38,831 nt of DNA, taken from Ignavibacteria bacterium (GTDB taxonomy: Bacteria > Bacteroidota > Ignavibacteria > UBA10030). A model generated the notes under the pieces. That model did no database searches, was not told where the DNA came from, and was given only the letters and a program-made list of their open reading frames with translations. The position numbers and the translations under genes are program-made. The stretch covers positions 1 through 38,831 of the forward strand of contig VGWB01000010.1 in assembly GCA_016873755.1 (NCBI GenBank). The letters run 5' to 3'. Positions 21,770-38,831 of this stretch are shown here, piece by piece (position 1 is the first letter of the stretch; the number at the start of each line of letters is the position of its first letter).

Positions 21770-24700
21770 CTACCTCGGCCGGGAATCGAGTGTGTCACGT
21801 ACCATCTTGAGCATTTCTTCCGGCCTGCAGGGTTTTTGAATGAATCCGCGCACGCCGGAATCCAGAATCTTCGTTTTGACCTGGCATTCCAGATATCCGC
21901 TCGCCATGATCAGTGAGACACCGGGTTCCACCGCTTTGATCCTTTTGAACAGCTCCCAGCCATTGAACTTGGGCAGGCCCATGTCACAGACTACTATGTC
22001 GATTTCCTTTCTGTGCCTGCGGTAGAGGTCAACACCGTCCTGTCCGTCGGCCGCCGGGATTACAGTATACCCCTTCTCGCGCAAGATGTCAACAACCAGG
22101 TTACGTAGCACGTCTTCATCCTCGACGACAAGGATTGTCTCACTACCGCCGCGAACGTCCTGGCTTCTTCCCTGCTGGGAATCCCCTTGAACCTCCGCTT
22201 CCGGTGGGACCGGGAGATAGATCCTGAAGGTTGCACCCCAACCTTTTTCGCTCTCGACGTCGATAAGCCCTTGATGAGCTTGGACAACTCCGAAGACAAC
22301 CGCGAGGCCGAGTCCCGTCCCCTTTCCTTTTTCCTTTGTGGTGAAGAAGGGATCGAATATCCTTGCTTTGGTCGTTTCGTCCATACCCTTTCCGGTGTCG
22401 CTCACGGCGATCATGACGTATTGCCTTCCCTCCGCAACTGGGAAACGAGCGGAAATTTCCTCTCCTTGAACGAGCCTCGTGGCAATCGTGAGAGATCCGT
22501 GGTCGCTCATGGCATCTCGTGCATTCAAACAGAGATTCAGAAGAGCCTGATGAAGCTGCGTATGATCCATCGAGATGATCGGTATGTCTTTTTCAAGCTG
22601 GAGCGAGAGCCGTATGGTCTTAGGGAAGGTTTCCCCCAGCATCCGTGCCAACTCGCCGATGACGGAATTGACGTTCAAGGACTCAAGGTTGAATTCTGTT
22701 TTACGGGCGAACGTAAGGATCTGGCGGACAAGGCCCGCGCCTCGTTCGACCGATTTTACGATCGCCTCGACCCCGGACGCAATCCTCTTTGAATCACCTA
22801 CTGAGTGTTCCAACATCGAGGCGTATCCAAGGATGATGGCGAGGATGTTATTGAAGTCGTGCGCGATGCCAGCGGCAAGAGTCCCTATGCTTTCCATTTT
22901 CTGTACCTGAACGAGCTGCTGGCTAAGCTTCTTCCGTTCCGTGATGTCGCGGAAGATGGTCAGTACAGCCGGACGACCACGCTCAATTTCGAGGAACGTG
23001 TTCGACAACTCCAGCCACACCTTCCGTCCATCCCAGAAGACCGTATCGGCTTCGAGATGAGCAGGAACCGTCCGAGCGGCAAACCGCTGCTTCAAGATCT
23101 GAGTACCCCTTTCGATCTCGTCGGTCGATTCCATTTTGTAAATTATGTGGAACGGCTTCCCGATCAATTCATCACGCGGCTTACCCGTTAGCCGGCAAAA
23201 TGCCTCATTCACCGCCACGATCGTTCCCGATTCATCAATGATGCGCATACCGTCCATCGTGTTCTCCCATACCCGGCGGAAGCGGAGTTCAGAGAGCTTC
23301 AATTCTTCTTCGGCCTTCTTGCGCTCCGTGATATCGCGAAAGATACTGAGAACTTGGGGTGCCTGGCCCGGAACCTCAAGAATCGAGTTGGAAAGTTCGA
23401 CCGGTTTGGGCTCGCCGCTGTGGAGAGGGATCTCAACATCCATCCGTGGCGTGATTGCCCGCTCGGCAACGCGCCGCCTGAACTTTTCGAGATCTTCCTC
23501 ATTTTCCTTAGGGGATGCTTGATACGCAACCGTAAACGGCTTTTCCATCAATTCGTCACGTGACATGCCCACCAGGCGGCAGTATGCATCGTTGACCATG
23601 ACGATTGTTCCGTCTTGATCAAGAATCCTCATACCGTCTACGGCACTCTCCCACACCTGACGGAATTGGGCTTCGGACTTCCTTAAGGCCTCCTCCGTCT
23701 GTTTCCTATGCGTGATGTTGCGCAGAATCCCCCGATAGCCGAGAACCTCGCCCTTCTCATCCCGAATGGCTGTCGATGACTCAAGGCAAATCAATTTCTG
23801 ACCATCCCTGGTTTTCAGCTCGACCTCGTAGTCTTTGAGGAATCCATCTTTCGAGACCAGACGCTGACTCTTGTCGCGATCGTTCGGGTTGAAGTACAGA
23901 TCATGCGCGATATCGACCTTCAACAACTCCTCTTTCGACGAGAACCCAAACATCTCAACACCGGCAGGATTGATATCCAGCAACCGCCCTTCGACGGTAC
24001 TGCTGAATATCGCGTCTTTCGATTCTTCAATGATCGTGCGGTATTTCTGTTCCGACTGGCGCAGTTGTTCCTCGGCCCGTTTCCGCTCGGTGACATCTTG
24101 CATGATGCCAATCATCCGTACGGCCTTACCGTTCTCATCGGGGATGAAAATGCCGCGGTCATGCATCTGAACATAGTGACCGTCCCGATGCCGATACCGG
24201 TATTCAACGTCATAGGGGGTGAGGCTATGCTCCGCCACCTCAAGCAGCCGTAGGGCCTCGGCGCGATCTTCCGGATGGATAAGCTCTTCCCACTGAGCGA
24301 TACCGCCCTGCATTTCAGCCGGTCCGTATCCCAACACCTGTTCAACACTCCCACTCCACACAATTCCGCCGCTCTGCACATCGTAGTCGTAGACCACTTG
24401 TCCGGATGCCACCGCAACAAGTTCATACCGCCGTTTCCACTCGGCAATCTCTCTCTCGGCCTGTCTTCGCGCACTGATGTCGCGCGCGATCACCTGCATG
24501 GCCGGCTTCCCCCGGTAGGTAATCGGCACAGACACGGTCTCGACATCGATGATCGACCCGTCGAATCGAACAAACTTCTCCTCGGCACGAGAGGCTCCCC
24601 TCTCCTCTCCGGGTGTCTGCTGGGCGCGTGCCCTCACTGCATCTTGATACTCTTGGTGGACGAGATCCAGAAACGGTTTGCCGATCAGTTCTTCGGCATA

Positions 24701-27448
24701 CTTTGCGCCGATCATCTCAGCACATGCCCGGTTGACGAACACCAGTTTCCCCTCCGAATGAACAGTGACCGCGTCGGGTGAAGATTCAACAAGCCGCTTA
24801 TACCGTTCTTCGCTCTCTTTCAAGGCCGCCTCGGCTCTCTTTTGCTCCGTAACATCCCCCACAAGCGCCATGGCGCCGCAGACTTCACCACGTGGATCGC
24901 GTATCGGTGCCGCGAATAGCCGCATATCGATCGAGCTGCCGTCTTTCCTTGTTCGTCGAATGTCAATCCCGTTGAGCTGTTCGCCATGGATGAGTTGACC
25001 GAAGATCTGCCAAAACTCCGAGTGATTCCCGGGTGAGATGAACGGCAGCGGCCGCCCCAGCACCTCCGCTGCTTTCCATCCGAACATCCTTTCTGCCGCG
25101 GGATTCCAGACTTTCCGTACATTGCCGTGCTCATCAAGGTCATAGATCGACAACGGCGATGATGAGATGATGGCATTCAGCGTCTCATTTGTCTCCCGCA
25201 ATGTCTCTCGATCTTTACGACGAGATTCTTCAATGCCGATCGCCGAAGCGAGAATCCCCATGAGTTTCTCATCACCTGGGTCGGCGCGACGATCCCTGTC
25301 ATAAAGAACACAGAGGGAGCCGATCGTCTCCTCACCAAATTTCACCCCGTGTCCAATGTACGTTTTCAGGCCGTACTTCTTCACATTCGGATCAGTCTTC
25401 GAATAGTCCGTGTCGCCCAGGTTGCGGATAACCAACGTCCCACTTTCCGCCTTTTCAATAAGGTCAGCACAGATACGACCTTGCGCGGCAGTGCGCTCAT
25501 CGGAGTCGGCTGGTACCCTCCACCGCCCCACCGAGAGCAGCATGCCCCCCTCCAGCCGATTGTACATCGCGCACGTCGCCCCCATCAACTCTCCACAGTG
25601 TGCAACGAGACGGTTGATATTGACAAGCGGATCCGGACCGAATTCGAGAAAGTATTCATTGAGTTTTGCCAACCGTTCCTCCATCCGCTTTCGCTCGGTG
25701 ATATCCTCATAAGTCCCCAGGACACCGATGACGTTGCCGTCCTCGTCGTGCAGCGGAACCTTGCTCGTGCGCAACCAGAGCGTTTCCCCATTTGGCCTGC
25801 TCTGCGGTTCCTCAAATCCGAGCTTGGGCGTGTCCGTTTCCATGACAAGACGATCATCACCCCTGTACAGTTCTGCCGTTCCTCTCCAAGACAGCTCGAA
25901 ATCATGTTTTCCAAGGATTTGGCAAGGATCAGTCAAGCCGGCGTCGAGAGCAAACGGCTTGTTACAGCCGAGGTAGCGGAAATCTCTATCCTTCCAGAAA
26001 ATCCGCTGGGGGATATGATCAAGGACGAACTCGAGCATTTGCTTCGACTGGAAGAGCGCCTTCTCGGCACGTTTCCGCTCGGTGATATCACGGATAATTG
26101 CCTGGAAATACTTCTTGCCGCTCGTCTCGATCACACGGGCGCTTGTTTCAACGTGTATCCGCCTGCCATCCTTCCGCTGATGGACCGTCTCGAAAACCGA
26201 CCCCCCTCCCTCGGCAATCTCTGCAATCTGTGTATCAAGCTGGTCAAGTGCCTCCGGGGCGCGGATGTCTCGAATATTCAATCGAAGGATCTCTTCAAGT
26301 GAATATCCGTAGATCCTGAGTGCCTGGTCGTTTGCATCAAGGATGTTTCCCTCGGGTGTAATCAACAAAATGATATCATTTGCATACTTCGTCAGGCTGT
26401 CACGATGCTCAGCCAATGCCTTGCGCCCAAGCTCTGCTTCATACTGGCGTTTGTAGAACTGTGACTGTTTGTGACGCCACAGCACGACGATCGAACTACC
26501 AGCAAGGAGGGTCGTGAGCCCAACGACGAAAAATGCCAGGACCGCTCGTTCCCGAATGGGCATGTAGATTTCATCCTGGTCCACCTTCGCGACAAGAATC
26601 CAGGTGCTATTTCTGACGGGTTGAATAGCAGCAAGAACAGCGATACCGCGATAGTCGGTGCCTTCAAAGACTCCCTGAACCCCGCGCGCACCAGCAGCGG
26701 CAGGCAGCCGTTCAGCGCTCACCGGCAATCGCAATCTGAGCGCGGTGTTTTTCCTGTGCCGCAGCTCGTTCAAATAGACAACCTCATCACCTTCACGCCG
26801 AATCAGCAAGCTTTCGGACGTTCTGCTGGGCGCCGGCCACATCTGGAGCATCGGATAAAGGGACTCCCCCACCCTCACCCGGAAAAGGACCGCGCCGAAG
26901 TGCCGCATCGGTTTCTGCTCCAGGTCCCGCAGCGGCGTGATGATATCTATATGGGCCCCGTCTTCGGTCTGTGCCCGGTGCAGATCGGACATCACCACCC
27001 TGTCGCTGCTGAGTGCCTCCCCGACCAGTCGACGCGTGGTTGCGTCGAGCTCCACTTTGCCCTCCGGAACCGAGATCCGGACGTTTCCCTCTCTGTCCAA
27101 GAGATAGACAGTTGAAAATCCATAGTTGCGACGAAGCAATTCCATCCAGTCGAGCAAGGCGCTTGTTGAAGTGGGTTCGCCGACCTGCATCAGGTGAAGC
27201 TTCATTCGGCTCGTGAAGGGGTTCTCATGAATCACTCTCGCATCAGCCAGACGCTCGCCGAGCCATTGCGTGATCTGTCGGGTCTTGAGCTCCGCGATCG
27301 CCATGAGCTCTGTCTTCTTCTCAAGCTTCATCTGTCGTACTTGATCGTCGAAATAGAGGTACCCGGTCACTGTAATTGCCACGGTCAGCAAGAACAGGAT
27401 CGCGGCCAGGTTCCAGGGTATCTTTCCCGTAACGGTTCTCAGCACCAT
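21770..27448 (-). CDS. Giant hybrid sensor histidine kinase with eight PAS and one GAF domain
   Basis: 1892 residues from ATG 27448, with AAGGAGG 9 nt upstream. Order by residue: transmembrane helix 12-31; extracytoplasmic sensor (about 35-300, Cache-like); second helix about 302-324; PAS1 345-463; PAS2 468-590; GAF-like 595-745; PAS3 747-875; PAS4 877-1000; PAS5 1003-1127; PAS6 1130-1255; PAS7 1257-1383; PAS8 1384-1510. Most PAS units end in a (R/E)DITERK-type linker. HisKA has GIAHDFNN with phospho-accepting His1530. The ATPase has NLCLNARDAM, DTGKGMD and GTGLGL. A receiver at about 1770-1890 has Asp1822 (VVCDMGLP). PAS7 and PAS8 are so alike that they look like a recent duplication. There is no DNA-binding output domain and no partner regulator beside it. 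It sits between nos and nrf on the same strand; a role in sensing their substrates or redox state is inferred from position. Confidence 0.93.
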   Translation of the reverse strand: MVLRTVTGKIPWNLAAILFLLTVAITVTGYLYFDDQVRQMKLEKKTELMAIAELKTRQITQWLGERLADARVIHENPFTSRMKLHLMQVGEPTSTSALLDWMELLRRNYGFSTVYLLDREGNVRISVPEGKVELDATTRRLVGEALSSDRVVMSDLHRAQTEDGAHIDIITPLRDLEQKPMRHFGAVLFRVRVGESLYPMLQMWPAPSRTSESLLIRREGDEVVYLNELRHRKNTALRLRLPVSAERLPAAAGARGVQGVFEGTDYRGIAVLAAIQPVRNSTWILVAKVDQDEIYMPIRERAVLAFFVVGLTTLLAGSSIVVLWRHKQSQFYKRQYEAELGRKALAEHRDSLTKYANDIILLITPEGNILDANDQALRIYGYSLEEILRLNIRDIRAPEALDQLDTQIAEIAEGGGSVFETVHQRKDGRRIHVETSARVIETSGKKYFQAIIRDITERKRAEKALFQSKQMLEFVLDHIPQRIFWKDRDFRYLGCNKPFALDAGLTDPCQILGKHDFELSWRGTAELYRGDDRLVMETDTPKLGFEEPQSRPNGETLWLRTSKVPLHDEDGNVIGVLGTYEDITERKRMEERLAKLNEYFLEFGPDPLVNINRLVAHCGELMGATCAMYNRLEGGMLLSVGRWRVPADSDERTAAQGRICADLIEKAESGTLVIRNLGDTDYSKTDPNVKKYGLKTYIGHGVKFGEETIGSLCVLYDRDRRADPGDEKLMGILASAIGIEESRRKDRETLRETNETLNAIISSSPLSIYDLDEHGNVRKVWNPAAERMFGWKAAEVLGRPLPFISPGNHSEFWQIFGQLIHGEQLNGIDIRRTRKDGSSIDMRLFAAPIRDPRGEVCGAMALVGDVTEQKRAEAALKESEERYKRLVESSPDAVTVHSEGKLVFVNRACAEMIGAKYAEELIGKPFLDLVHQEYQDAVRARAQQTPGEERGASRAEEKFVRFDGSIIDVETVSVPITYRGKPAMQVIARDISARRQAEREIAEWKRRYELVAVASGQVVYDYDVQSGGIVWSGSVEQVLGYGPAEMQGGIAQWEELIHPEDRAEALRLLEVAEHSLTPYDVEYRYRHRDGHYVQMHDRGIFIPDENGKAVRMIGIMQDVTERKRAEEQLRQSEQKYRTIIEESKDAIFSSTVEGRLLDINPAGVEMFGFSSKEELLKVDIAHDLYFNPNDRDKSQRLVSKDGFLKDYEVELKTRDGQKLICLESSTAIRDEKGEVLGYRGILRNITHRKQTEEALRKSEAQFRQVWESAVDGMRILDQDGTIVMVNDAYCRLVGMSRDELMEKPFTVAYQASPKENEEDLEKFRRRVAERAITPRMDVEIPLHSGEPKPVELSNSILEVPGQAPQVLSIFRDITERKKAEEELKLSELRFRRVWENTMDGMRIIDESGTIVAVNEAFCRLTGKPRDELIGKPFHIIYKMESTDEIERGTQILKQRFAARTVPAHLEADTVFWDGRKVWLELSNTFLEIERGRPAVLTIFRDITERKKLSQQLVQVQKMESIGTLAAGIAHDFNNILAIILGYASMLEHSVGDSKRIASGVEAIVKSVERGAGLVRQILTFARKTEFNLESLNVNSVIGELARMLGETFPKTIRLSLQLEKDIPIISMDHTQLHQALLNLCLNARDAMSDHGSLTIATRLVQGEEISARFPVAEGRQYVMIAVSDTGKGMDETTKARIFDPFFTTKEKGKGTGLGLAVVFGVVQAHQGLIDVESEKGWGATFRIYLPVPPEAEVQGDSQQGRSQDVRGGSETILVVEDEDVLRNLVVDILREKGYTVIPAADGQDGVDLYRRHRKEIDIVVCDMGLPKFNGWELFKRIKAVEPGVSLIMASGYLECQVKTKILDSGVRGFIQKPCRPEEMLKMVRDTLDSRPR

Positions 27449-27767: not shown

Positions 27768-28598
27768 TCAGATATCCTGCCTCTCCAGAACTCTACGTGA
27801 TATACGGAGGGGGAGGATAATCCATGCCGTAAGGCCACCAACGAGAAGGACCACACCGAGCGTCGAGCCGCCGAGAAACCTCAGCAACGCTGCCCCTGAC
27901 GCCCCGAAAATCGTGACATCGTCAAGAATGATGAGCGAGGCCACGCGGACCATATCGACTGGATTTCCAAACAGCGAGACAAAGAGAAATGTGTTTGCTG
28001 GCCGACCTCTGAAGAGAAGCGTACCCCCCAGAGTGAGCAAATCATAGAAAAGCACGAAGAAGAACCACACAAAGAGCGAGAGCCCAAAGGCTTTTGACTT
28101 CCTTCCACTGGCAACCGAGACGAGTGCCGCGAGACTCAGGAAGGTCAAGGAGAGACCAAGGGTAAGCGCCACAAAAAGGCCGTAGGAGACGATACCTTGA
28201 GAGCCTGTCTGAAGAAAGATGATGCCTCCGGAAAGGACAAAACCAAGGAGAGTCGAGATCGCGAGGGACAAAAAGACCCCGATGAGTTTTCCGAGCAGGA
28301 CCTCAGTGCGCGACACCGGTTGGGAATACAGCAGCTCGGCTGCTCCCCTATCACCTGTGAAGCTTAATGTCCCCATCGTCAGAGCGACGAGCGGCACGAT
28401 GTACAACACAAGGTTCAGGATGCTTGCAGACGTACGCGTGAAGCTCTGCATTCCGGAGAATCCTTCTACCATCATCCCAACGTACGCGATACTTACAACA
28501 AGGAGGCCGAAGATGATCGCAAAGATAATCGTCCACTTGTTGCGGATATTGACTGTGAGCTCCTGCCTCGCGATATGAAGAACGCTACGCATGTCCAT
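27768..28598 (-). CDS. nosY: Nitrous oxide reductase maturation ABC transporter permease NosY
   Basis: 276 residues, ABC-2 type permease with about six membrane helices (for example WTIIFAIIFGLLVVSIAYVGMM near 22-43 and the last near 245-262). The DRGAAELLYSQPVSRTEVLLGK segment is characteristic of the NosY/ABC-2 family. With NosF as ATPase and NosD as periplasmic partner it delivers a sulfur or copper cargo needed to build the CuZ centre of NosZ. It starts 69 nt after nosL and is the last gene of the nos operon. ATG 28598 is used; a second Met two codons in is possible. Function is inferred from family and context rather than from unique residues. Confidence 0.9.
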   Translation of the reverse strand: MDMRSVLHIARQELTVNIRNKWTIIFAIIFGLLVVSIAYVGMMVEGFSGMQSFTRTSASILNLVLYIVPLVALTMGTLSFTGDRGAAELLYSQPVSRTEVLLGKLIGVFLSLAISTLLGFVLSGGIIFLQTGSQGIVSYGLFVALTLGLSLTFLSLAALVSVASGRKSKAFGLSLFVWFFFVLFYDLLTLGGTLLFRGRPANTFLFVSLFGNPVDMVRVASLIILDDVTIFGASGAALLRFLGGSTLGVVLLVGGLTAWIILPLRISRRVLERQDI

Positions 28599-28667
28599 CG
28601 TACAACGGCCATTCTGGATTCACTCTTCTCTAACGGGCCTCGAATTTCCGGACCCTGAAATCGAATT

Positions 28668-29132
28668 CTACTTGTCGTGCTCCGGACAACACTCGTCTTC
28701 CGCGCGAGTCGCGTTCTCGGTCGGAGGAAATCGTTCCACTAACGAGCTCGCCCGCTGAGAATCCGCGACGGCAACGTTTCCCGATCCCATCGGCGTGGCC
28801 AGGCCGGTTCTCACGACGATGCTTTTCGCATACGGCAGCCATTCCATCGTTTCGTAATCCGTCACAAAGATCGTTCCGATCTTCAAGCTTGGATTGCTCT
28901 TGCGGTATGCGGCGAGGCAACTGAGGTCATCGAACTTGAAGACCTCCCCTTCTTCTGTGATGATCTCTGAGGAAAAGGCCTTGTCGGACACAGCCATGCG
29001 GCAATTGGAGCAATTGTCCTCGGGGTAGATATCGACCGGTTTTACCTGCGACGGTCCACACGAAACAGAAAGAGACACCATCCAGGCACCAATCAGTGCG
29101 CGTATCAACCTGTTATTCTTTTTCACGCTCAT
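28668..29132 (-). CDS. nosL: Copper chaperone lipoprotein NosL
   Basis: 154 residues. The N-terminus is a lipoprotein signal (RALIGAWMVSLSVSC) with lipidated Cys25. The mature protein has the NosL copper motif CSNCRMAVSDKAF (Cys41, Cys44, Met46) and FDDLSCLAAY. NosL binds Cu(I) and supplies copper to apo-NosZ. The C-terminus carries an extra EDECCPEHDK, with adjacent Cys and a His that could bind metal; I do not know this as standard for the family. Its start overlaps the nosF stop by 20 nt. It sits in the order nosF-nosL-nosY rather than at the end of the cluster. Confidence 0.93.
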   Translation of the reverse strand: MSVKKNNRLIRALIGAWMVSLSVSCGPSQVKPVDIYPEDNCSNCRMAVSDKAFSSEIITEEGEVFKFDDLSCLAAYRKSNPSLKIGTIFVTDYETMEWLPYAKSIVVRTGLATPMGSGNVAVADSQRASSLVERFPPTENATRAEDECCPEHDK

Positions 29133-29838
29133 ATTCCTCCACGTAGTGCAGATACAGATCCTCGATTGTACCCTCGACTACTAATGTCGAACGAAGGTCT
29201 TGTATAGACTCCAGCGCAACGAGCCGTCCGCCGACGAAGATACCCACACGGTCGGCAAGTTGCCTAGCTTCGTCCAACAAATGGGTGGAAAACACGATGG
29301 TTTTTCCCTCTTGCTTTTGCGCGATGACAAACTCGCGGAACCGTTTGACACCCTGAGGGTCCAGGTTCGCGGTCGGTTCATCAAGCAGAAGAATCGGTGC
29401 ATCCGGCAAAGACAGTACCGCAAGCCCGAGTCGCTGAATCATACCGCCCGAGAACTCACTCACGGTTCTGTCGGCGAATCCGTCGAAGTGTGCCCTGGCG
29501 AGAATCTCATCTGCGTGCTCGGACGTTAGCTTTCGGATACGGCCGTAAAACCGCATGACTTCTCGCGCCGTGAGGTTCTCAGGAAAAACGACCCGCTGCG
29601 GCAGATAGCTCACGAATCCCCTCGCTTCCTTGGGGCACTTCTGAACATCCTGACCGTTTATGATGACGCGACCCGAAGTCGGAATACACAATCCGACCAT
29701 GGACTTTAACGTCGTGGTCTTGCCACTCCCGTTCGGCCCAAGGAAGGCAAACACTTCGCCCATTCGAACATGAAATGACACGTCGTCCACGGCGGTAAAG
29801 CGCCCAAATCGCTTTGTCAGATGGTCAACTGCGATCAC
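29113..29838 (-). CDS. nosF: Nitrous oxide reductase maturation ABC transporter ATPase NosF
   Basis: 241 residues from GTG 29838, which overlaps the nosD stop (GTGA). The frame is open further upstream but those residues lie within nosD and do not resemble ABC proteins. It has Walker A LGPNGSGKTTTLKS, the Q-loop YLPQ, the signature SEFSGGMIQRLGLA, Walker B ILLLDEPTANLDP and the switch His in FSTHLLDEA. It powers the NosY permease for CuZ assembly in the periplasm. Its C-terminus overlaps nosL by 20 nt. The order D-F-L-Y with overlaps shows tight co-translation. Confidence 0.95.
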   Translation of the reverse strand: MIAVDHLTKRFGRFTAVDDVSFHVRMGEVFAFLGPNGSGKTTTLKSMVGLCIPTSGRVIINGQDVQKCPKEARGFVSYLPQRVVFPENLTAREVMRFYGRIRKLTSEHADEILARAHFDGFADRTVSEFSGGMIQRLGLAVLSLPDAPILLLDEPTANLDPQGVKRFREFVIAQKQEGKTIVFSTHLLDEARQLADRVGIFVGGRLVALESIQDLRSTLVVEGTIEDLYLHYVEEYEREKE

Positions 29839-31211
29839 CGCGCACCCCGCTTTGAGTTTCGTAGATAGAAAATCCCCAGAGAGGCAGCTACAGCGAGAGG
29901 AACGACAAACCACACGCCTTTGCTCGTGCCCGTGGACCCACCCACTTCCTCCGAGGTCTTCCCGTACTCATTCGCTCCAAGGACATACAGATCCACGGGC
30001 CGAACGAGTGGTTTCTCATCCACCTCCTCGTTGATGGGAATGATTGGGAAGGCTTTTGCAGCAACGGCAAGAGCCTGCGAGGCCGGACTATACAAATAGA
30101 GACGCAGATTGGGGTACCTTCCCTCAAGATATGAGAAGACGTTCTGAATCTTCATCGGGACATCACCGATCCCGTCAGCGTCGATATCATAACCATCGTA
30201 CGAACTCCAGTAGTTGCCGCGCCCATTCTCGCTCCAGTGTGACTCGGTTCTCTTCCCGACAATTGTCAAAGGGCTCAGGTTATCGATGAAGTTGTTTCCC
30301 GAGAACGTATTTCTGACCGAATTCTGAAACACTTGAAGGGCCACATCGTTCTGTGCGATGATGTTGTGGCGGAAACTGTTACCTGTGGACCCTTCAAAGA
30401 ATATCCCTACGACGTTGTCAACAACTACGTTTGAGTCGGCTCGTATACCGTGACAGTCCTGAAAGAGGATGCCGTACGATGCAAATCCGCGGTTGTGGGC
30501 GAACACGTTGTGCCGCATGAGAATCCCCTTCGAATACATCACCGCCGCGCCGGCGACGTTGTCGTAAAACCTGTTGCCGAGAAAGACGTTGGAGTCCGCA
30601 TACATATAATGCAGTCCGTAGCGGACCCTGAACACCTTGCTCTTCTCGATGAATGTGTGATGCGCGTACTGGATGTAGAATCCGTCCCGGACGTCGGTGA
30701 TCGTGTTCCCGCTGAAGAAGTTGCCGTGGGAATTCCAGATGTGAATCCCACTCCCCCGCTGCCCAACCTCCAGCTCACGCCGTCCGACGATCAAATTGTT
30801 CATAATCCTGTTCGAGTCCACGCCAAAGAGGTAGATCCCAAAGAGGACATTCCGAATCTCGTTGTCCTCAATGATGTTCCGGCCCAATTTCAGGAGTATG
30901 CCAGCATCCTCCCTCATGAGCTCCCCTCCGCTCCGCTCGATCAGAAAGCCCCTTACGAGACAGGAATCTGCGAGAATCGTGATGCAGCTTCCAGACCCAT
31001 CTCCGCGGATTACCGGCTTTCCTTTTCCCACGAGAGCCAGCCGTTTCTGGAGCAAGAGGTTCCCCTCGTGCACACCTTGGTCTACAATGATTGTATCTCC
31101 GGACTTTGCAGCGTCAATTCGCCTCTGCAGACTTGAATTCTGGGCAGCCGATTGTCCCAACAGAAGGGAAGCGGCAACAGCGAGGCCTGCCACAGACCAA
31201 AGTCGGTTCAT
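29835..31211 (-). CDS. nosD: Periplasmic CuZ-maturation protein NosD
   Basis: 458 residues. A signal peptide (LWSVAGLAVAASLLLGQSAAQ) leads to a right-handed beta-helix of CASH repeats (about 40-335), seen as recurring patterns such as SGIHIWNSHGNFFSGNTITD, YADSNVFLGNRFYDN and GIFFEGSTGNSFRHNIIAQN. GNYWSSYDGYDIDADGIGDV is the usual NosD end-cap and may bind Ca. The C-terminal part has a low-complexity linker and a final hydrophobic helix (VWFVVPLAVAASLGIFYL) that should hold it in the membrane. NosD works with NosFY in building the CuZ centre of NosZ. It starts 12 nt after the ywiC-like stop, with GGAAG ahead of the ATG. Confidence 0.93.
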   Translation of the reverse strand: MNRLWSVAGLAVAASLLLGQSAAQNSSLQRRIDAAKSGDTIIVDQGVHEGNLLLQKRLALVGKGKPVIRGDGSGSCITILADSCLVRGFLIERSGGELMREDAGILLKLGRNIIEDNEIRNVLFGIYLFGVDSNRIMNNLIVGRRELEVGQRGSGIHIWNSHGNFFSGNTITDVRDGFYIQYAHHTFIEKSKVFRVRYGLHYMYADSNVFLGNRFYDNVAGAAVMYSKGILMRHNVFAHNRGFASYGILFQDCHGIRADSNVVVDNVVGIFFEGSTGNSFRHNIIAQNDVALQVFQNSVRNTFSGNNFIDNLSPLTIVGKRTESHWSENGRGNYWSSYDGYDIDADGIGDVPMKIQNVFSYLEGRYPNLRLYLYSPASQALAVAAKAFPIIPINEEVDEKPLVRPVDLYVLGANEYGKTSEEVGGSTGTSKGVWFVVPLAVAASLGIFYLRNSKRGAR

Positions 31212-31223
31212 ACAATTCTTCCG

Positions 31224-32030
31224 CTAAAATCCGGCGTGGGTGAGCACAACGGCAAAAAGGATACTTTGACCGACCAGAATGATTCCGAGGCGCTTGTACC
31301 GCACCTTATCGGACAACCTGACCGTCCCGTAGATCGAGTGGATTGTCATCGGCACGAATGCGACAATGGCGAGCCGCGGGGTGTAATGTACGGCGACGAG
31401 AAAAATCACAAGCGAAAGCGCGAGAACGTGATAGAGCACATTCAACGTTCCCAGCCGGGCCTTGTCGCTCCAGGCGAGCCTGGGGTTTCTTGCCGCCGAC
31501 GCACGGATCTTCAGATGTACGTACACCACAGTGCCACCGAAGAAAAGCGCGTTCAGAATCCATAGCGTCACCGCGGTTCGATCGAACGATCCTGAAGTGA
31601 CGACGTAGGCTGCGGGAGCACTCACTGTTAGCCCAAGAACAGCAATTTGATCGACGAGGAACTTCCCGGGGATCCTGCTTCGCAGGGAAACAGTAAGCAG
31701 AAACGCGGCAACACCGACCGCTCCGAGCGGGACAATCATCCAATAGCCGCTTAGCAACAACGGAACGAGGAAGATCGTCCCCACCCCGAGATAGATGCCG
31801 GCCCAGAGCATCGATGCCCGCACGACGACAGCATCCCGCAATCCTTCCAGCCGTCTTCGCAGCAGGGTCTGCAACGGCACGTGACTCAAGAAAAAGCCCA
31901 ACATCGACCCGGCGAGGAGAATCACCCTCGGCGAGAACGATTCGGTTACGCTTGCTCCTATCACCAGCGGAACAAAGATCACTGCCCAGGCGCCGTGCTC
32001 TGTTGGAATGATGGGATTCAATCTCGTCAT
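31224..32030 (-). CDS. YwiC-like polytopic membrane protein
   Basis: 268 residues with about eight predicted membrane helices and no signal peptide. The N-terminal PIIPTEHGAWAVIFVP motif marks the YwiC-like family, named after a Bacillus gene near the nitrate respiration genes. Charged loops include LLRRRLEGLRDAVVVRA and KIRASAARNPRLAWSDKARL. Its biochemical role is unknown to me. Here it is bound into the nos operon (13 nt after the preceding gene, 12 nt before nosD), which fits a link to anaerobic respiration. Family assignment comes mainly from the N-terminal motif and the helix layout. Confidence 0.75.
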   Translation of the reverse strand: MTRLNPIIPTEHGAWAVIFVPLVIGASVTESFSPRVILLAGSMLGFFLSHVPLQTLLRRRLEGLRDAVVVRASMLWAGIYLGVGTIFLVPLLLSGYWMIVPLGAVGVAAFLLTVSLRSRIPGKFLVDQIAVLGLTVSAPAAYVVTSGSFDRTAVTLWILNALFFGGTVVYVHLKIRASAARNPRLAWSDKARLGTLNVLYHVLALSLVIFLVAVHYTPRLAIVAFVPMTIHSIYGTVRLSDKVRYKRLGIILVGQSILFAVVLTHAGF

Positions 32031-32043
32031 TTACACTACGCCC

Positions 32044-32682
32044 TCAGAGAGTCTTCTGCCTCAGCACCGATCCTCTGGAGACCCACATTGCGATGAGAAA
32101 CAGCAACGGCACAACCGCCATAACGTAGGAACCGACACCGGGGTAGCTGTACACTTCAAAGTTCGCCATGGTCCCATGCCCAAATAGCGGAGGCGTGAAC
32201 GGCGGTACCTTGACTGCAGCAGTCGGAGCAAGATCGTGTCCGTACGCGTAAAGCTTGTGGTAGAAGCTCCAGAGCGAAAAGAGGCAGAAATAGGTGAACA
32301 AGACGAAGAGATCAACAAGCTTTGACATTTTGCCGAGTACGACGACGCGAAATGCAAGAAGAATCGATCCGCCGATGACGAACGGTATCCATTTGAATTC
32401 CGTGAAGTCCTCCTCTACCAGCGGACGCATACCGATGTAGTGATTGAGTGCGTTGATCTCCTTCAGGTCGTCCCGATACTGGGTCTTCCCCCCTTCAAGT
32501 TTGTGGGAATAGATGTGGAGCGCCAGACCCTCCGGGAATTGATTGGAATAGAGCGTCATGTTCCACAGCGGGAAGAAGAATGTCGGCACGAGCAGGAGCC
32601 CGGCCGCAAGCACGAATATGCGTCCCCGCACGTCAAGTGGGTTCTCGAAGAAAGATGACGCCTTTTCCAGAAGCCGTCGCAT
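32044..32682 (-). CDS. Membrane protein following nosZ (NosB-position), function unknown
   Basis: 212 residues from ATG 32682, chosen because AAAGGA lies 9 nt before it and the protein then begins MRRLLEKASSFFENPLDVRG; the frame also opens at ATG 32727, adding 15 residues. About five membrane helices. The first (RIFVLAAGLLLVPTFFFPLW) is followed by a conserved-looking outer loop: MTLYSNQFPEGLALHIYSHK, DLKEINALNHYIGMRP and FTEFKWIPF. The second loop, PPLFGHGTMANFEVYSYPG, also holds His. It lies directly after nosZ, the place where clade II clusters such as Wolinella's carry nosB, an uncharacterised membrane gene. Homology to NosB was not tested. His and Met residues in the outer loops would suit metal handling, which is speculation. 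Confidence 0.7.
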   Translation of the reverse strand: MRRLLEKASSFFENPLDVRGRIFVLAAGLLLVPTFFFPLWNMTLYSNQFPEGLALHIYSHKLEGGKTQYRDDLKEINALNHYIGMRPLVEEDFTEFKWIPFVIGGSILLAFRVVVLGKMSKLVDLFVLFTYFCLFSLWSFYHKLYAYGHDLAPTAAVKVPPFTPPLFGHGTMANFEVYSYPGVGSYVMAVVPLLFLIAMWVSRGSVLRQKTL

Positions 32683-32784
32683 TACACTCGATCCTTTCAC
32701 CTCGCCCCACACTTCAAACCGTATCATTCTGCCGCATCCTGCCCCCGCCGCGAGGAGAGGCAGGCAGGAACACCAGGAGCCGCT

Positions 32785-34617
32785 CTATGGCCTCACAAGA
32801 AGATAGCCCTGCATTTCCTGATGCAGGGCGGAGCAAAAGTTCGTGCAGTAGAAGGGGAAAACGCCTTGCTTGTCTGCCACAAACTCTATTGTCTTTGTCT
32901 CGCCGGGATCAGCCACGATGTTCAGGTTGTACTCATTCAATCCGAATCCGTGCAATTCGTCGGTCGTCTGCTCGATGTTCGTCAAATAGATGGTCACTCT
33001 ATCCCCTTTGTTCACCTCGATCTTCCACGGCTCGAAGCTTGACCGAACGGCGATCATATAGACTTCGACGTTCCTCCCGTTGCGTACTATTCTTGCATCC
33101 TTGATATCCCAGATCGCCTTCGGATTCTTGTTCTCCTCCTTCGGATACACTTCGATCGGTTTCAGCTTGTCTGCCTTGATAATCTGGGCATAGTGAGGCT
33201 CCGGTTCGGTGAATGCATCGAGAAGCAGTGACATCTTCTCGCCACTGATATCAATGAGCTGGGAGGATTCCGGCTGAGAAGGTCCGACGCTCAGATGCCG
33301 GCCGTGTGAGAGCTTGTTGAGCGCGATGAGGTACCTGCCCGCGGGATGTTTCGTGTCTCCTTCCGCCGCCGCGAGGTGACCGATATTGTACGAGACTGGA
33401 ATCTTGTCCAGAACCTCCCACGTTCCAAGCTTCCACTTCGCCACGGCGCTCTCGACGAAGAGGGAAGTGTAGGCATGCCCTTGGTCGTCGAACTGTGTGT
33501 GAAGCGGTCCCAGGCCGACACCCACCTCCGCGTCTTTGACGGCGTCATAGTTCAGGACGGGAATCCCGTCTTCGTTGCCGGTGAAATCCTTCTTTTCGAT
33601 CGCCATCAACATCTTCTCGAAGTTGAAAACCGATGTAATCCCTTGAAGCTTACCGCTCGCGATAATGTGTTTCCCGTCCGGACTCACATCCACGCCGTGG
33701 GGCGATTTCGCAGCCGGGATGAGATATACGACGCCGGAAACGTCTCTGGGATCAATGACCTTGGCACCGCCGATCATCTTGAACTTCCCGTCCTTCAGAG
33801 CTTTCTCAGCCGCACGCCAGTTTACGGCCGCCACGTAGTCCCTATCCTTCTGAGACGCTGTCTCCTCCAGTCTCCCAATCGCTCGTTCCGAGTTATAGCA
33901 CGTCCAGAATCCCCATTCCTTGCTTGGACCCTTTCCCGCGTCTCCCAGGTCGTAGTTGAACGGAGGCATCAGTACCTCCCATCCGAGGGACATCTTCCCG
34001 CTCTTTGCGTCAACCGCGATACCCGCAACGACACCTTTGTATTTCGTCGCATAATCCTCGATCTTCTCGTATGTGCCGCGGGGCAAGGGAATCGAGAATC
34101 GTGAGCCGGCGAGGACATACTCGGTATTCTCTGTGACAAACGACGAACAGTGGTTGCCTGAGACATTAGGGATGGGACCGAGGATCTCCTTAGTTTTGAA
34201 ATCCCTCAAGTCGATGCGCGCCATACGATTGTTGGCATTGTCGGAAATGAAGAGCCACCGGCCATCGTAATCGCCGTCCGTCTCACTAAGGGATGGGTGG
34301 TGAGCATCGCCCCAAACGAATCCCCCAAGCATCTCCTTGCTCTCCTTGTCGAATCCGTACCCGGTTGCAGGATACGGTGTGAAGACGGGAATCGTGGCGA
34401 TATGTCGCATCGACGGGATACCATAGATGTACACCTGCCCGGAGTGGCCACCCGATTTGAAGACATAGAACTCGTCGAGGTCACCCGGAGCGACATAGAC
34501 CTTTTGGGCAGCTTCCTGGACATCCGAGCGCACCCCTACTCGTCCGCGTTCGCCGCCGCAGCCTGCCAGGGCGAGAATGACTGCAAAGACCGCGGGGACA
34601 GCAAGTTTGTTGGTCAT
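32785..34617 (-). CDS. nosZ: Nitrous oxide reductase NosZ, clade II, with lipoprotein signal
   Basis: 610 residues. It reduces N2O to N2 in the periplasm. The N-terminus is a Sec lipoprotein signal, not a Tat one: AVFAVILALAGC with lipid-modified Cys20. Clade II form is supported by this and by GDAHHPSLSETDGDYDGR. CuZ histidines visible are 106, 107, 156 (SGNHCSS), 307 (SPHGVD), 373 (GPLHTQF), 414 (IGHLAA) and 475 (PEPHYAQ). The C-terminal cupredoxin has the CuA site: His556 (ELHGFGL), then FYCTNFCSALHQEM with Cys591, Cys595, His599 and Met602. All ligands are present, so it should be active. GGAGG lies 7 nt before the ATG. It is in one operon with a bc complex and its maturation genes. Confidence 0.97.
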   Translation of the reverse strand: MTNKLAVPAVFAVILALAGCGGERGRVGVRSDVQEAAQKVYVAPGDLDEFYVFKSGGHSGQVYIYGIPSMRHIATIPVFTPYPATGYGFDKESKEMLGGFVWGDAHHPSLSETDGDYDGRWLFISDNANNRMARIDLRDFKTKEILGPIPNVSGNHCSSFVTENTEYVLAGSRFSIPLPRGTYEKIEDYATKYKGVVAGIAVDAKSGKMSLGWEVLMPPFNYDLGDAGKGPSKEWGFWTCYNSERAIGRLEETASQKDRDYVAAVNWRAAEKALKDGKFKMIGGAKVIDPRDVSGVVYLIPAAKSPHGVDVSPDGKHIIASGKLQGITSVFNFEKMLMAIEKKDFTGNEDGIPVLNYDAVKDAEVGVGLGPLHTQFDDQGHAYTSLFVESAVAKWKLGTWEVLDKIPVSYNIGHLAAAEGDTKHPAGRYLIALNKLSHGRHLSVGPSQPESSQLIDISGEKMSLLLDAFTEPEPHYAQIIKADKLKPIEVYPKEENKNPKAIWDIKDARIVRNGRNVEVYMIAVRSSFEPWKIEVNKGDRVTIYLTNIEQTTDELHGFGLNEYNLNIVADPGETKTIEFVADKQGVFPFYCTNFCSALHQEMQGYLLVRP

Positions 34618-34695
34618 CGATGTTCCTCCATAGTGAAGTGATGATTTCTTCTCCGCGAGGCCGCAGAGGAGATGAGGTTTGTTAGATACCTCTAC

Positions 34696-35916
34696 CTATC
34701 TCTTTTCGCTCTCTTTCCGTTCTTGCTTCTTTAGCTCGTACGCATAGCGGATTTTCTCTACTGCCTCCGCTCGCTCTTCAGGAGTCAGGATGATCATCGT
34801 GGAGAGAACGACATCCATTGTACCGGTCGGGCGTGCAAGGAAGTCATCGAGTGTCCGGCCAAAGCGCGATTGCACATCCTCAACGGCGAGAGCGAGATCA
34901 GGTCCGATCTGCGCTGCAGCATCGATGCCGAGAGTTGAAACAGAGTGACACACGAAGCAGTTCTTCTTCACGAAGAAGGAGCCCGGACCCTTCAACATCC
35001 GCTCCTCTTTCTCGATTTCTTCTTTCGATGGTACATCCTTGAAATTGTGGCCGGGCACGTACTCAACAGGCGGTGCGGCTTTCTTCCAGCTCATCACCAA
35101 CATCGCCAGGGCTTGTGCATCGGAGCTTGAGAAGTTGAAATTCGGCATCACGGATTCCGGAACGATCTCCTTCGGATTCTTCAGGTGAGCCACTTGCCAG
35201 CTAAACTCAGTGGCCAGTCCCTTGACACGTTCATAGCTGAATTGCTCGGGGGCCTTGTCACCTTCGTAGGTCAGGTCCGGTCCGACAGTGCCACCTCGTC
35301 CATTGATGACGTGACAGGCACGACAGCCCTTTTCAGTCACCAGGTGTTTCGCACGATTGATGTAGGATGCACCCTTGGTCTCCCTTTCGTACCGATGGCA
35401 GGAATTGCAGTTGATCTGCATCAGCGCTTTCCTGTCGCTCACAACATAGAAATCACCGAGCTCTCTTCCCAGAAGCGGCTGCTCCCAATGCTCGACAAAT
35501 CCGTGGGCAGCATGGGTTTGGGTCGCGTAACCCTGGCCTCCGTGACACGGCGTGCAGCCGTATTTCTGAATCGGATGCTTCTCCAGAATCTCCCTTGGAT
35601 GAGCCTTGTGTGGATTCACGGCGCTCTCCATCCCTTTCCACTCAATGCCCTGGTGGCATGTTACGCACCGATCCGTGATCCCAAGGTCACCGACAAATAT
35701 CTGCTGCAGTCCTCTGGGTATAGGAGCAACACGTTCTTCACCGAACTTCTCTGCAATCACCTCTCTGAATTCAGACTGATATGCTTCCCACTCAGGCATC
35801 AGATAGATGTAGAACAAGAAGCCGGTGGTCACGAGAAGAAGGATGCTCGCGACGCTGAGAATGAGCGAGTCGTACTTCGTACCAACCAATCTCTCTTTTG
35901 ATTTCTTGTGATTCAT
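34696..35916 (-). CDS. Membrane-anchored pentahaem cytochrome c of the nos operon
   Basis: 406 residues. One N-terminal helix (about 18-39, LILSVASILLLVTTGFLFYIYL) anchors it; the rest is periplasmic. Five CxxCH haem sites: CVTCH (84-88), CTPCH (121-125), CNSCH (170-174), CRACH (198-202) and CFVCH (320-324). The last two lie in regions with VGPDLTYEGD and IGPDLA, like class I cytochrome c domains; each could have a distal Met. It follows qcrA and qcrB with a 10-nt gap, the place of cytochrome c1 in other bc operons, and precedes nosZ. The best reading is a quinol-cytochrome c subunit that accepts electrons from Rieske and gives them to NosZ. The middle residues (about 210-310) match nothing I recognise. 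Confidence 0.87.
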   Translation of the reverse strand: MNHKKSKERLVGTKYDSLILSVASILLLVTTGFLFYIYLMPEWEAYQSEFREVIAEKFGEERVAPIPRGLQQIFVGDLGITDRCVTCHQGIEWKGMESAVNPHKAHPREILEKHPIQKYGCTPCHGGQGYATQTHAAHGFVEHWEQPLLGRELGDFYVVSDRKALMQINCNSCHRYERETKGASYINRAKHLVTEKGCRACHVINGRGGTVGPDLTYEGDKAPEQFSYERVKGLATEFSWQVAHLKNPKEIVPESVMPNFNFSSSDAQALAMLVMSWKKAAPPVEYVPGHNFKDVPSKEEIEKEERMLKGPGSFFVKKNCFVCHSVSTLGIDAAAQIGPDLALAVEDVQSRFGRTLDDFLARPTGTMDVVLSTMIILTPEERAEAVEKIRYAYELKKQERKESEKR

Positions 35917-35926
35917 AGCTCTAAAG

Positions 35927-37252
35927 TCAAAAGCGAATCGGGGTCGTTGGCCACGCTTCCCACGGCCAGTAGAAATCCCAATACGGTCCCCGAAGGAACG
36001 TTCCGACGATCGTCAGCAATATGACAAACAAACAGAGAGCAAGGAAAATGAGATTCTGCCGCTTTCGCTCTGGGGCGAACCACACACCTGTGGCGTTGAT
36101 GCTCGAGCGATCGCGATACGGCCACCAGATCGCAAGAACCAAGAGTATCCCCGGCAGCAAGATGCCTCCTACAAGCGCCCCATTGAGCGTGAAGGAACCC
36201 AGCTTAATCGTCGTGTCTGTGACGATCTCCTGCAGCCACAAAAAGTACCATGGGGCCTTGGCAGGATTCGGCGTCACCGACGGGTTGGCAGGAGCCTCCA
36301 GTGGCGTCGGTACGATGATCGACGAGACCATCACCAAGAGCATCGTAACAAGCGTGACAAGCCATATCCGCCTTGAGAGATTCGGGACCGATGGGAGTGA
36401 ATTCTCTTCTTCATTCACCATCCTTGTCTGAACATGAACGGTCGTTCCGTTCGTGATACCGAGGAGGGAATAGGTTTTGGATTTGACAGGGGCAACCTGT
36501 TCCGGTTTTTGGCTGAGCGCCTCACGGTCAACCACAGCAAGACCCCCATCCTTGCGAATCCTCCACATGTGCCACGCGAACAAAGACACGAGGATCACGG
36601 GAAGGAAGAAGACGTGCAGAACGTAGAAGCGTATCAGGGTTCCCTGGTCAATCGTGTTTCCACCCAGGAGGAAATACCGGATCTTTTCCCCAACAATCGG
36701 CGCTGCACTTGCAATGTTCGTACCGACGGTTATCGCCCAATACGCCAGTTGATCCCATGGGAGCAGGTAACCCGTGAAGGAAAGCAGGAGCGTGCAGATG
36801 AGAAGAGCGAGGCCGATGATCCAATTCAGCGGACGGTTCGTTCCGACGGACCTGCCATTCTTGTATGCCCCCGTAACAAACACTCGAACCATGTGCAGGA
36901 ATACCGTGGCCACCATCAGGTGAGCGGACATTCTATGCATCGCTCGAAGAAACCATCCGAACGAAACAACGTATTCGATGTCTTTGACCGAGGCGTAGGC
37001 TCTCTCGACTGACGGCACATACAGAAACATCAGAACGATCCCGGTCACCGTCAGGATCACAAAGAGTACGAACGACATGGTTCCGAGCCAGAGGGAGTAC
37101 CACCACGAGATGCTCCCTTTAGAAACCTTGTGGGGGAACCAGTGGAGCAAGATATTCTTGACGATCGCATCTCCTGCCTCCTTGTCACTTCTTGGAATCC
37201 ATGACCAGGTGAGGCGACGATAGAGCTTCTTTGTTGATTGCACGATTTGCAT
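35927..37252 (-). CDS. qcrB: Cytochrome b subunit (b6/subunit IV-type fusion) of a bc complex
   Basis: 441 residues. Haem b ligands are His106/His120 (first helix pair) and His213/His228. Fourteen residues lie between His213 and His228, as in cytochrome b6 rather than bc1. The quinol site motif is APWYFLWLQE (about 333-342), in place of the PEWY of the bc1 complex, so the Glu is missing. The C-terminal portion resembles subunit IV in the same chain, joined by a loop of about 65 residues (235-295). It oxidises menaquinol and sends one electron to Rieske and one to haem b. It is 24 nt after qcrA and 10 nt before the cytochrome c gene. About eight helices in all. Confidence 0.92.
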   Translation of the reverse strand: MQIVQSTKKLYRRLTWSWIPRSDKEAGDAIVKNILLHWFPHKVSKGSISWWYSLWLGTMSFVLFVILTVTGIVLMFLYVPSVERAYASVKDIEYVVSFGWFLRAMHRMSAHLMVATVFLHMVRVFVTGAYKNGRSVGTNRPLNWIIGLALLICTLLLSFTGYLLPWDQLAYWAITVGTNIASAAPIVGEKIRYFLLGGNTIDQGTLIRFYVLHVFFLPVILVSLFAWHMWRIRKDGGLAVVDREALSQKPEQVAPVKSKTYSLLGITNGTTVHVQTRMVNEEENSLPSVPNLSRRIWLVTLVTMLLVMVSSIIVPTPLEAPANPSVTPNPAKAPWYFLWLQEIVTDTTIKLGSFTLNGALVGGILLPGILLVLAIWWPYRDRSSINATGVWFAPERKRQNLIFLALCLFVILLTIVGTFLRGPYWDFYWPWEAWPTTPIRF

Positions 37253-37276
37253 TGCGATTTCCCCGAGAACGCCGGA

Positions 37277-37834
37277 TCACACCGTGAGACGGAAGTTTTG
37301 CTCAACTTCTTGGCCCATGTTGACTACAAGCTGTCCGTCATCAGGCGCGATGTGGAGCCTGAACCAACGCAGCGGACGCGGAGCTGGCCCGGCGAAGTTG
37401 GTGCCATCTCCATAGAACTTGGATCCGTGGCATGGACAGTTGAATTCACCGGTGACAGTCTTCCTCTCACCGTCGATCTCAACCTGTTTGACCTGGTTAA
37501 GCTTGGTGTATTTCACCGTGCAGCCCAGGTGGGTGCAGGCGCCGGAGATCGCGTAGTACGATTCGCCTTCCCTGAAGACATACAGGCGTTTATCCTCCAG
37601 AAACGTCACACCTTCGGCGAGTTGCTGGGGGAGGCCGAGTTTGAAAACCTGAGGCGGCTCATACAGGACGTTCGGCACCAGCGAACGAATCGATTGATAT
37701 CCTAAGCCCGCGATTGCTGCGAGCACGCTTCCTACTCCGAATTTCTGAAGAAACGCCCGGCGACTTCCTGGTCGGTCCGACGCCGACGGTACAACTACAG
37801 GAGCGTTTGCATGATGCTTCCGAAAGAGCTTCAT
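37277..37834 (-). CDS. qcrA: Rieske iron-sulfur protein of a bc complex
   Basis: 185 residues. The N-terminus has a Tat-like signal (SRRAFLQKF at 24-32, then GVGSVLAAIAGLGY), the usual membrane anchor for Rieske proteins. The 2Fe-2S ligands are in CTHLGC (Cys100, His102) and CPCHGS (Cys133, His136), with Cys105 and Cys135 as the disulfide pair. APRPLRWFRL follows as the family's Pro loop. It passes electrons from quinol oxidised at cytochrome b to the cytochrome c acceptor. It is the first gene of the nos operon. The ATG at 37834 has no clear Shine-Dalgarno (an A-rich leader instead). No promoter could be placed with confidence. Confidence 0.93.
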   Translation of the reverse strand: MKLFRKHHANAPVVVPSASDRPGSRRAFLQKFGVGSVLAAIAGLGYQSIRSLVPNVLYEPPQVFKLGLPQQLAEGVTFLEDKRLYVFREGESYYAISGACTHLGCTVKYTKLNQVKQVEIDGERKTVTGEFNCPCHGSKFYGDGTNFAGPAPRPLRWFRLHIAPDDGQLVVNMGQEVEQNFRLTV

Positions 37835-38135: not shown

Positions 38136-38831
38136 CTATTTTAGCAACAGTGCCTTTTGTACGGCGGCCTTGCCTCCAGATTCGAGTCGCAGAAAGTACA
38201 TGCCTGAGCCCAAACCGGCCGCATCGAACACAACTTGGTGTCTTACACCCGCCTGGACTTCACTGTCATACAACGTCCGCAACTCTCGCCCCAGTATATC
38301 AAATACTTGCACGACTGCCCGTCCGGTTTTTTCAACTGAGAAGCGGACCGTTGTGCTCGGGTTGAAGGGATTGGGATAGTTCTGATCCAACTCAAACTTG
38401 TATGGAATGGCTGTGAGACTCGATGCGGCGACACTCGTTGGCACCCCTGTTCTCGCGTCGATGTGATAGACGACAGCTCCCCACCCTGGAACGGTAAAGC
38501 TCACCTGATTCAATTGCGCTTGGGAGATTGTGTTCTGCGTCTCTGAGAGTACATCCAAGAAGCTGTAGGAAGTCTGAGGAGCGAGCGGCAGGGCGGAGAA
38601 ATCGACAGAGGTGGAAACTGATCCCCCGGTGAAGTTTAGAACACCGATGACAAGATTGTCCCCTGATTTGCTGTAGTATGAATACGCTGTGGTCGGTGTT
38701 GAGTTTGTCAGACGCCCCATCTGAGCGCTATTTGTCAGGTATTTTTTTCTTGCCGCGACAAGCTTCTTGACTCGTTCACGGAAACCGGCGTTGTCAACTC
38801 TTTGATATGGGGTGTAATCATACGCGGCGCC
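38136..38831 (-). CDS. C-terminus of a T9SS-secreted protein, probably a GH13 amylase-like enzyme (cut by window edge)
   Basis: 231 residues visible; the N-terminus is off the right edge, and the frame is open at 38831 in phase. The last 80 residues are a Por/T9SS type A sorting domain: YPNPFNPSTTVRFSVEKTGR, VFDILGRELRTLYD and GSGMYFLRLESGGKAAVQKALLLK. This directs outer-membrane export by the type IX system and surface attachment. In front is a beta domain (SGDNLVIGVLNFTGGSVSTS to VPGWGAVVYHI) of the kind closing alpha-amylases. The first visible residues (YTPYQRVDNAGFRERVKKLV, ARKKYL) look like the end of a GH13 barrel. The catalytic residues are outside the window, so the enzyme call is tentative while the sorting domain is certain. 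Confidence 0.68.
   Translation of the reverse strand, partial: GAAYDYTPYQRVDNAGFRERVKKLVAARKKYLTNSAQMGRLTNSTPTTAYSYYSKSGDNLVIGVLNFTGGSVSTSVDFSALPLAPQTSYSFLDVLSETQNTISQAQLNQVSFTVPGWGAVVYHIDARTGVPTSVAASSLTAIPYKFELDQNYPNPFNPSTTVRFSVEKTGRAVVQVFDILGRELRTLYDSEVQAGVRHQVVFDAAGLGSGMYFLRLESGGKAAVQKALLLK

Follow-up and report, generated by a model that had tools for sequence, protein, structure and literature searches.

The locus described here raises the question of how electrons reach clade II nitrous-oxide reductase (NosZ), a route that outside Wolinella has, as far as we could find, been little studied. The window, by which is meant the whole stretch of 38,831 nucleotides analysed (contig C10, GenBank VGWB01000010.1), comes from the 3.97 Mb genome of an Ignavibacteria bacterium with a completeness of 96.9%, and carries on its minus strand, at positions 27768-37834, a nos operon with the gene order Rieske protein, cytochrome b, pentahaem cytochrome c, clade II nosZ, NosB-like, YwiC-like, nosD, nosF, nosL and nosY. 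All ten of these same-strand genes, separated by short gaps or overlaps according to an original prediction read from the sequence, were confirmed as present with their families matched and with intergenic gaps of -20 to ~100 bp. Taken as a whole, the operon probably encodes a complete chain from the membrane quinol pool to nitrous oxide (N2O), together with the functions required for NosZ maturation, in which the fifth-haem domain of the pentahaem protein would be a NosZ-specific carrier fused to a substitute for cytochrome c1.

By the route proposed, the Rieske protein and cytochrome b would oxidise quinol and the Rieske electron would pass to the membrane-anchored pentahaem cytochrome, the tetrahaem core of which would stand in for cytochrome c1; from the fifth-haem domain the electron would then reach CuA in NosZ and, because that domain is fused to the c1 substitute, a diffusible cytochrome would be unnecessary. 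Docking would presumably be direct, and transfer would presumably follow this order. The gene concerned (34696..35916) occupies the position of cytochrome c1 and encodes exactly five CxxCH motifs (residues 84, 121, 170, 198 and 320) plus one predicted N-terminal membrane helix, the protein consisting of two parts, a tetrahaem core (residues ~14-288) and a fifth-haem domain (residues ~295-406). No cytochrome c1 model was matched by this third gene of the operon, which with its five haems lies outside a strict definition of a bc1 complex. In an alignment (A2) of the window with 38 of 41 nosZ-adjacent loci (all except L103, L110 and L126), the candidate ligands outside the CxxCH motifs were His 106, 114, 138 and 244 together with Met 367, all invariant in 39 of 39 sequences, and Met 257, present in 97%; to judge from the sequences, the haems would comprise three with bis-His ligation followed by two with His/Met ligation.

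The protein was sought in other nosZ clusters, as the original prediction had proposed, and among its best 80 named relatives nosZ was found to adjoin the gene in 41, a contig end cut the locus in five, and no nosZ lay nearby in 34. The nosZ-adjacent relatives fall in the Ignavibacteria, KSB1, Acidobacteriota, Gemmatimonadota and Myxococcota, the closest pentahaem relatives being mostly named Ignavibacteria or Bacteroidetes, and Rieske and cytochrome b genes were also present in 37 of the 41 loci (three of the other four being cut at the contig start). Possession of five haems, regarded beforehand as a less usual feature of this cluster, is the rule in this lineage rather than a local peculiarity.

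With a profile of the fifth-haem domain, all 41 nosZ-adjacent loci reached 136.8 bits or more, and none of the 39 others exceeded 17.7 bits; as the profile was built from the window and 38 of those same 41 loci, the first count arises partly by construction and the second does not. In one Gemmatimonadota genome (G759) the domain forms a gene product of its own, a lipoprotein-like protein of 146 residues with 50% identity over the match, encoded immediately 5' of nosZ. That this domain is the NosZ-specific part of the pentahaem protein constitutes what is new beyond the earlier reading, the module to which it belongs being conserved and real.

The notion that the domain is an ordinary NosC carrier fused on was tried and rejected: a NosC profile drawn from 29 clusters gave the fifth haem of the five-haem proteins a median of 4.8 bits. 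The stand-alone copy in G759 was the reason for retaining the domain as a NosZ-specific carrier of another lineage. On the same tetrahaem core in WOR-3, the fifth domain is NosC-like (100-116 bits, with stand-alone NosC beside nosZ reaching up to 169), and two NosZ-type carriers would appear to have been fused independently to one type of core. The loci in question (L128, L129, L131, L136 and L137, from WOR-3 and one record named Thermotogota) encode a multihaem cytochrome of the Rieske/cytochrome b complex with a NosC-like end, and the WOR-3 genomes with this domain carry a nos cluster with its own NosC on another contig.

Pairwise distances among the pentahaem proteins were correlated with those among the NosZ proteins (r = 0.84 for the 31 loci with complete genes; 0.91 without L113), and none of 2000 permutations, which ignore shared ancestry, reached 0.84. 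A tree of the core, calculated without the fifth domain and with loci cut by a contig end set aside, required three changes of the nosZ label as compared with a shuffled mean of 25.6; in a first tree, based on cytochrome b, the branch of L064 had been very long and L121, a locus truncated by its contig end, had been scored as lacking nosZ. Nested among the nosZ-linked rows is L123, a 302-residue four-haem protein from a genome with no nosZ match, a single case of weak branch support that faintly hints at joint loss of the fifth haem and nosZ. In one Ignavibacteria genome (L113 / L068) the pentahaem bc module has been kept, but the nosZ beside it is divergent, with scores resembling those of nosZ from other Bacteroidota, an indication that nosZ was replaced in situ. 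Since linkage is conserved across phyla, the fifth-haem domain is NosZ-specific and the divergence of the two proteins is correlated, there is good support for an electron supply dedicated to NosZ.

Surveys of individual phyla gave a similar picture. Within the window's own phylum nosZ scored over the cut-off in 99 of 296 genomes and a full-length pentahaem protein (> 450 bits) was present in five, all of them members of the window's order and all with the gene beside nosZ, the next best match scoring 141 bits; every nosZ-positive genome of that order (5/5) has a pentahaem homologue. Among 11 genomes outside the order, Rieske/cytochrome b genes were attached to nosZ in none, a single-haem cytochrome lay 5' of nosZ in nine of the 11 clusters, and one genome (G224) held a Rieske/cytochrome b/tetrahaem cluster ~13 kb from nosZ. 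Full-length homologues (>= 440 bits) occurred in 11 of 247 Acidobacteriota genomes, ten within ~415 bp of nosZ and the eleventh (G487) on a contig that ends inside a directly following nosZ, in two of 198 Myxococcota genomes, both beside nosZ, and in one of 200 Gemmatimonadota genomes, again beside nosZ. When the 21 Acidobacteriota with nosZ over the cut-off were considered, the gene for the pentahaem protein, or a fragment of that gene at a contig end, lay beside nosZ in 12 and not in nine, and in the five of those nine whose surroundings were read no Rieske/cytochrome b genes were found in the 16-20 kb around nosZ. Plasmid records yielded no relative.

Scores in the Acidobacteriota, Gemmatimonadota and Myxococcota searches drop from > 400 bits to <= 231, and the weaker matches span residues ~6-341, mostly 20-288, the exceptions being two fifth-domain pieces (G525 and G759), both of which adjoin nosZ. 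The tetrahaem core is common to clusters of 4-10 haems without nosZ. Occurrence of the pentahaem protein mainly away from nosZ had been named in the original prediction as damaging to its case; the full-length form is found almost only with nosZ, the tetrahaem core also without it.

Of the two proteins presumed to feed the pentahaem cytochrome, the Rieske iron-sulphur protein (37277..37834; PF00355, 44.8 bits) has an RR-containing N-terminal anchor and the cluster-ligand motifs CTHLGC and CPCHGSKF, while the cytochrome b (35927..37252; PF00033 and PF13631) is of the b6 type with a fused C-terminal part and contains two His pairs, 106/120 and 213/228. Their spacings of 14 and 15 are those of cytochrome b6. 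The donor may be menaquinol, a reading that follows from a MenA-like match, itself below its cut-off, and from the general use of menaquinone in the group; the dedicated, proton-motive menaquinol-to-N2O chain first envisaged stands as regards dedicated supply, and is less secure as regards the quinol and the pumping of protons.

Several observations weigh against such a chain, to which the neglect of ancestry in the above permutations should be added. The fifth-haem domain has no recognisable sequence kinship to ordinary NosC, and the divergent nosZ of L113 indicates that the pentahaem/nosZ pair is not strictly co-inherited. One locus (L086) has the pentahaem gene and nosZ without Rieske/cytochrome b genes across 9.9 kb upstream. 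The tetrahaem core is carried by many Rieske/cytochrome b clusters that have no nosZ; of 36 genomes of this kind, 25 lack any nosZ match (36 of the 39 non-adjacent loci being covered, all except L152, L156 and L160). A structure model of the pentahaem protein (mean predicted local distance difference test score 71.8) was confident for residues ~180-284 and ~300-406, poor around haems 1-3, and without a useful match for the fifth domain. The Qo region of the window cytochrome b reads AKAPWYF in place of PEWY, the glutamate of which is absent. Finally, the window genome encodes a cytochrome c oxidase and a second Rieske/cytochrome b pair on contig C38 (L064:8021-19755), and because of these two, other electron routes exist.

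As regards the Qo site, [AST]K[AS]PWYF was present in every cytochrome b of the same family in which the site could be located, in relatives with and without nosZ alike. Lineages differ in the second residue of the PEWY-type motif, and its identity is correlated with quinone type and with redox potentials (PMC9162462). Proton pumping by the nos-linked bc complex is plausible.

The second pair bears on a further claim, namely that another bc operon serving N2O respiration would overturn the prediction. Such a pair does exist: the genes for a Rieske protein and for a cytochrome b with a PEWY motif are accompanied by one for an 11-haem protein and by further multihaem genes, with a cytochrome c assembly gene close by, but no nos genes were matched in the 20 kb read around the pair. 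The wider alternative is that the window complex is a general one feeding several periplasmic acceptors (oxidase, nitrite reductase and NosZ), with nosZ merely adjacent in this lineage. Homologous complexes without nosZ are indeed common, and the oxidase genes of the genome and the proximity of nrfHA, 6 kb away, would supply the other acceptors; nevertheless, the fifth-haem domain occurs only in the neighbourhood of nosZ, the second pair is available in the same genome for other uses, and in genome SRVP_31 a pentahaem copy linked to nosZ (L130) coexists with a separate, hexahaem copy that has no nosZ beside it (L145). We consider a general complex unlikely. At the Acidobacteriota loci L141-L160 (Bryobacterales and relatives), the Rieske/cytochrome b complex was observed in a hexahaem form that has no nosZ.

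Returning to a chain dedicated to NosZ, a second set of observations concerns its cytoplasmic side. A GltD/Nfn-like flavin/iron-sulphur gene of ~640 residues (for example L065:13053-14948) lies directly 5' of the Rieske gene in 36 of 41 nosZ-linked loci, and in 30 of the 30 that have at least 2 kb upstream; the best solved relatives of its product include NfnA and Nfn subunits. The same gene also lies beside many relatives without nosZ, but the WOR-3 and Omnitrophota loci that were read all lack it. An insert on the cytoplasmic side of cytochrome b (KTYxLL; residues ~230-300 in the window protein) accompanies the gene, being present in 48 of 53 loci with it as against one of 11 informative loci without it. 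That one is the window, where the gene for a secreted protein that has a sorting domain (38136-38831) stands in place of the flavin gene. Co-occurrence of insert and gene gave a Fisher p of 2e-7; once ancestry was allowed for, four independent pairs were left and nothing was significant.

These findings might be taken to mean that the main role of the complex is to connect a cytoplasmic Nfn/GltD-like enzyme with the periplasm, as a hub with electrons entering or leaving on the cytoplasmic side and not coming from quinol alone. The frequency of the gene 5' of Rieske, its solved relatives and the insert that goes with it speak for such a role; set against them are the lack of the gene at the window despite the insert, the outcome of the ancestry-aware test, and the fact that neighbourhood by itself is no proof of contact, and we judge this explanation very unlikely. 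A broader version, which concerns the family since the inner partner gene is missing at the window, would make the nosZ-linked Rieske/cytochrome b complex a two-sided hub, fused on the outside to a NosZ carrier and docking an Nfn/GltD-like enzyme on the inside via the insert, an arrangement that might couple N2O-linked quinol oxidation to NAD(P)H or ferredoxin, conceivably through bifurcation. It is offered as speculation, and its chances are rated as slim.

The model of the pentahaem protein was also used in fold searches, in which class I cytochromes c were matched, for the most part over residues 160-284 and with Z <= 7.6; no Foldseek match was obtained at E <= 0.001, and there was nothing for haems 1-3 or the fifth domain. 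Multihaem proteins often act as electron stores or outward conduits, and the pentahaem protein could be mainly one of these, with some other carrier feeding NosZ. The cluster, however, contains no porin or outer-membrane cytochrome gene, and the single-haem carrier usual 5' of nosZ in this phylum is absent here with the pentahaem gene in its place, which leaves a store or conduit as a most improbable role when compared with that of a carrier to NosZ.

The NosZ so supplied (32785..34617) scored 907 bits against the clade II model TIGR04246 (cut-off 625) and fell under the cut-offs of the twin-arginine (Tat) and clade III models. Its lipoprotein-like N-terminus, MTNKLAVPAVFAVILALAGCGG, is free of a twin-arginine signal as read by eye, as expected of the Sec-type enzyme, and at residue 591 the enzyme has CTNFCSALHQEM, an instance of the CuA motif CxxxCxxxHxxM. 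Directly 3' lies a gene for a protein with four predicted membrane helices (32044..32682), the likelier start of which, as read from the bases, is the ATG at 32682 or that at 32727. No Pfam or NCBIfam model matched it; it is homologous to the four-helix protein immediately after nosZ in the other clade II clusters of the phylum, and its position and sequence suggest that it is NosB, for which four or six helices beside nosZ are expected. NosB is described in PMC11388526. The remaining genes encode a YwiC-like membrane protein (31224..32030; PF14256), found in five of the 25 nosZ-linked loci that extend 6.2 kb or more past nosZ and hence in some relatives only, NosD (29835..31211; TIGR04247, 407 bits), the ATP-binding cassette (ABC) ATPase NosF (29113..29838; PF00005), the GTG start of which at 29838 overlaps the nosD stop as read from the bases, the copper chaperone NosL (28668..29132; PF05573) and the ABC-2 permease NosY (27768..28598; PF12679). 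A scan of the operon for promoter- and terminator-like sites yielded no useful boundary.

Genes for nrfA (19526-21148) and nrfH (21001-21645) lie on the minus strand of the window ~6 kb downstream of the nos operon, NrfH scoring over its model cut-off. Because nrfHA is on the same strand at this short distance, the organism appears to be a nitrite ammonifier that also possesses a sink for N2O; the presence of NosZ in ammonifiers has been discussed (PMC10653820). Between the two gene groups, also on the minus strand (21770-27448), is a histidine kinase-like protein of 1892 residues with, as seen by eye, many PAS-like repeats and a receiver domain.

For several phyla the locus offers a specific answer to the question posed at the outset: a single five-haem protein would link a bc complex to NosZ. 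If this is correct, the bc step of N2O respiration in these bacteria would be energy-conserving, and possession of the fifth-haem domain would mark genomes having such a chain.

Among known systems, the clade II nos clusters of other Bacteroidota share with the window operon the type of NosZ, the NosB-like protein, NosLDFY and nearby nrfHA, but differ in the single-haem cytochrome 5' of nosZ and in the lack of attached Rieske/cytochrome b genes noted above; in Melioribacter roseus, cytochrome c, NosZ, NosL, NosD, NosF and NosY adjoin nrfHA (PMC3534657). The Alternative complex III can be set aside, as its NrfD-like and large iron-sulphur subunits are absent from the ten genes and no chain of that complex matched the pentahaem protein up to E = 1. 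The best NCBIfam match of the window cytochrome b is ExtP (248 bits) of the selenite/tellurite Ext system; ExtP, ExtQ and ExtS are all under their cut-offs (290, 150 and 100 bits), and no Ext operon is present at the window.

According to work by Hein and colleagues from 2017, clade II N2O respiration in Wolinella reportedly requires a Rieske/cytochrome bc complex and NosB, a dependence that the window system would share. By way of difference, the window has its bc genes inside the nos operon and a cytochrome with five haems instead of two, and NosG, NosH, NosC1 and NosC2 of the Wolinella-type NosGC1C2H module were unmatched among its ten genes. The bc cytochrome of Epsilonproteobacteria is a dihaem protein, and periplasmic respiration in Campylobacter is Qcr-dependent and electrogenic (PMC6195509).

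No description of a pentahaem Rieske/cytochrome b module in nos operons was found in the open-access literature, and the subscription literature may contain one. A parallel is provided by multihaem Rieske/cytochrome b complexes, in which, as at the window, a multihaem cytochrome is the presumed Rieske acceptor, an idea credited to Dibrova 2013 (PMC5317091), and the complex is attached to a terminal reductase operon, a Rieske/cytochrome b pair sitting in the Nap cluster of Caldithrix abyssi (PMC5317091). What distinguishes the window from these is that its reductase is NosZ, and that its fifth-haem domain is seen only with nosZ.

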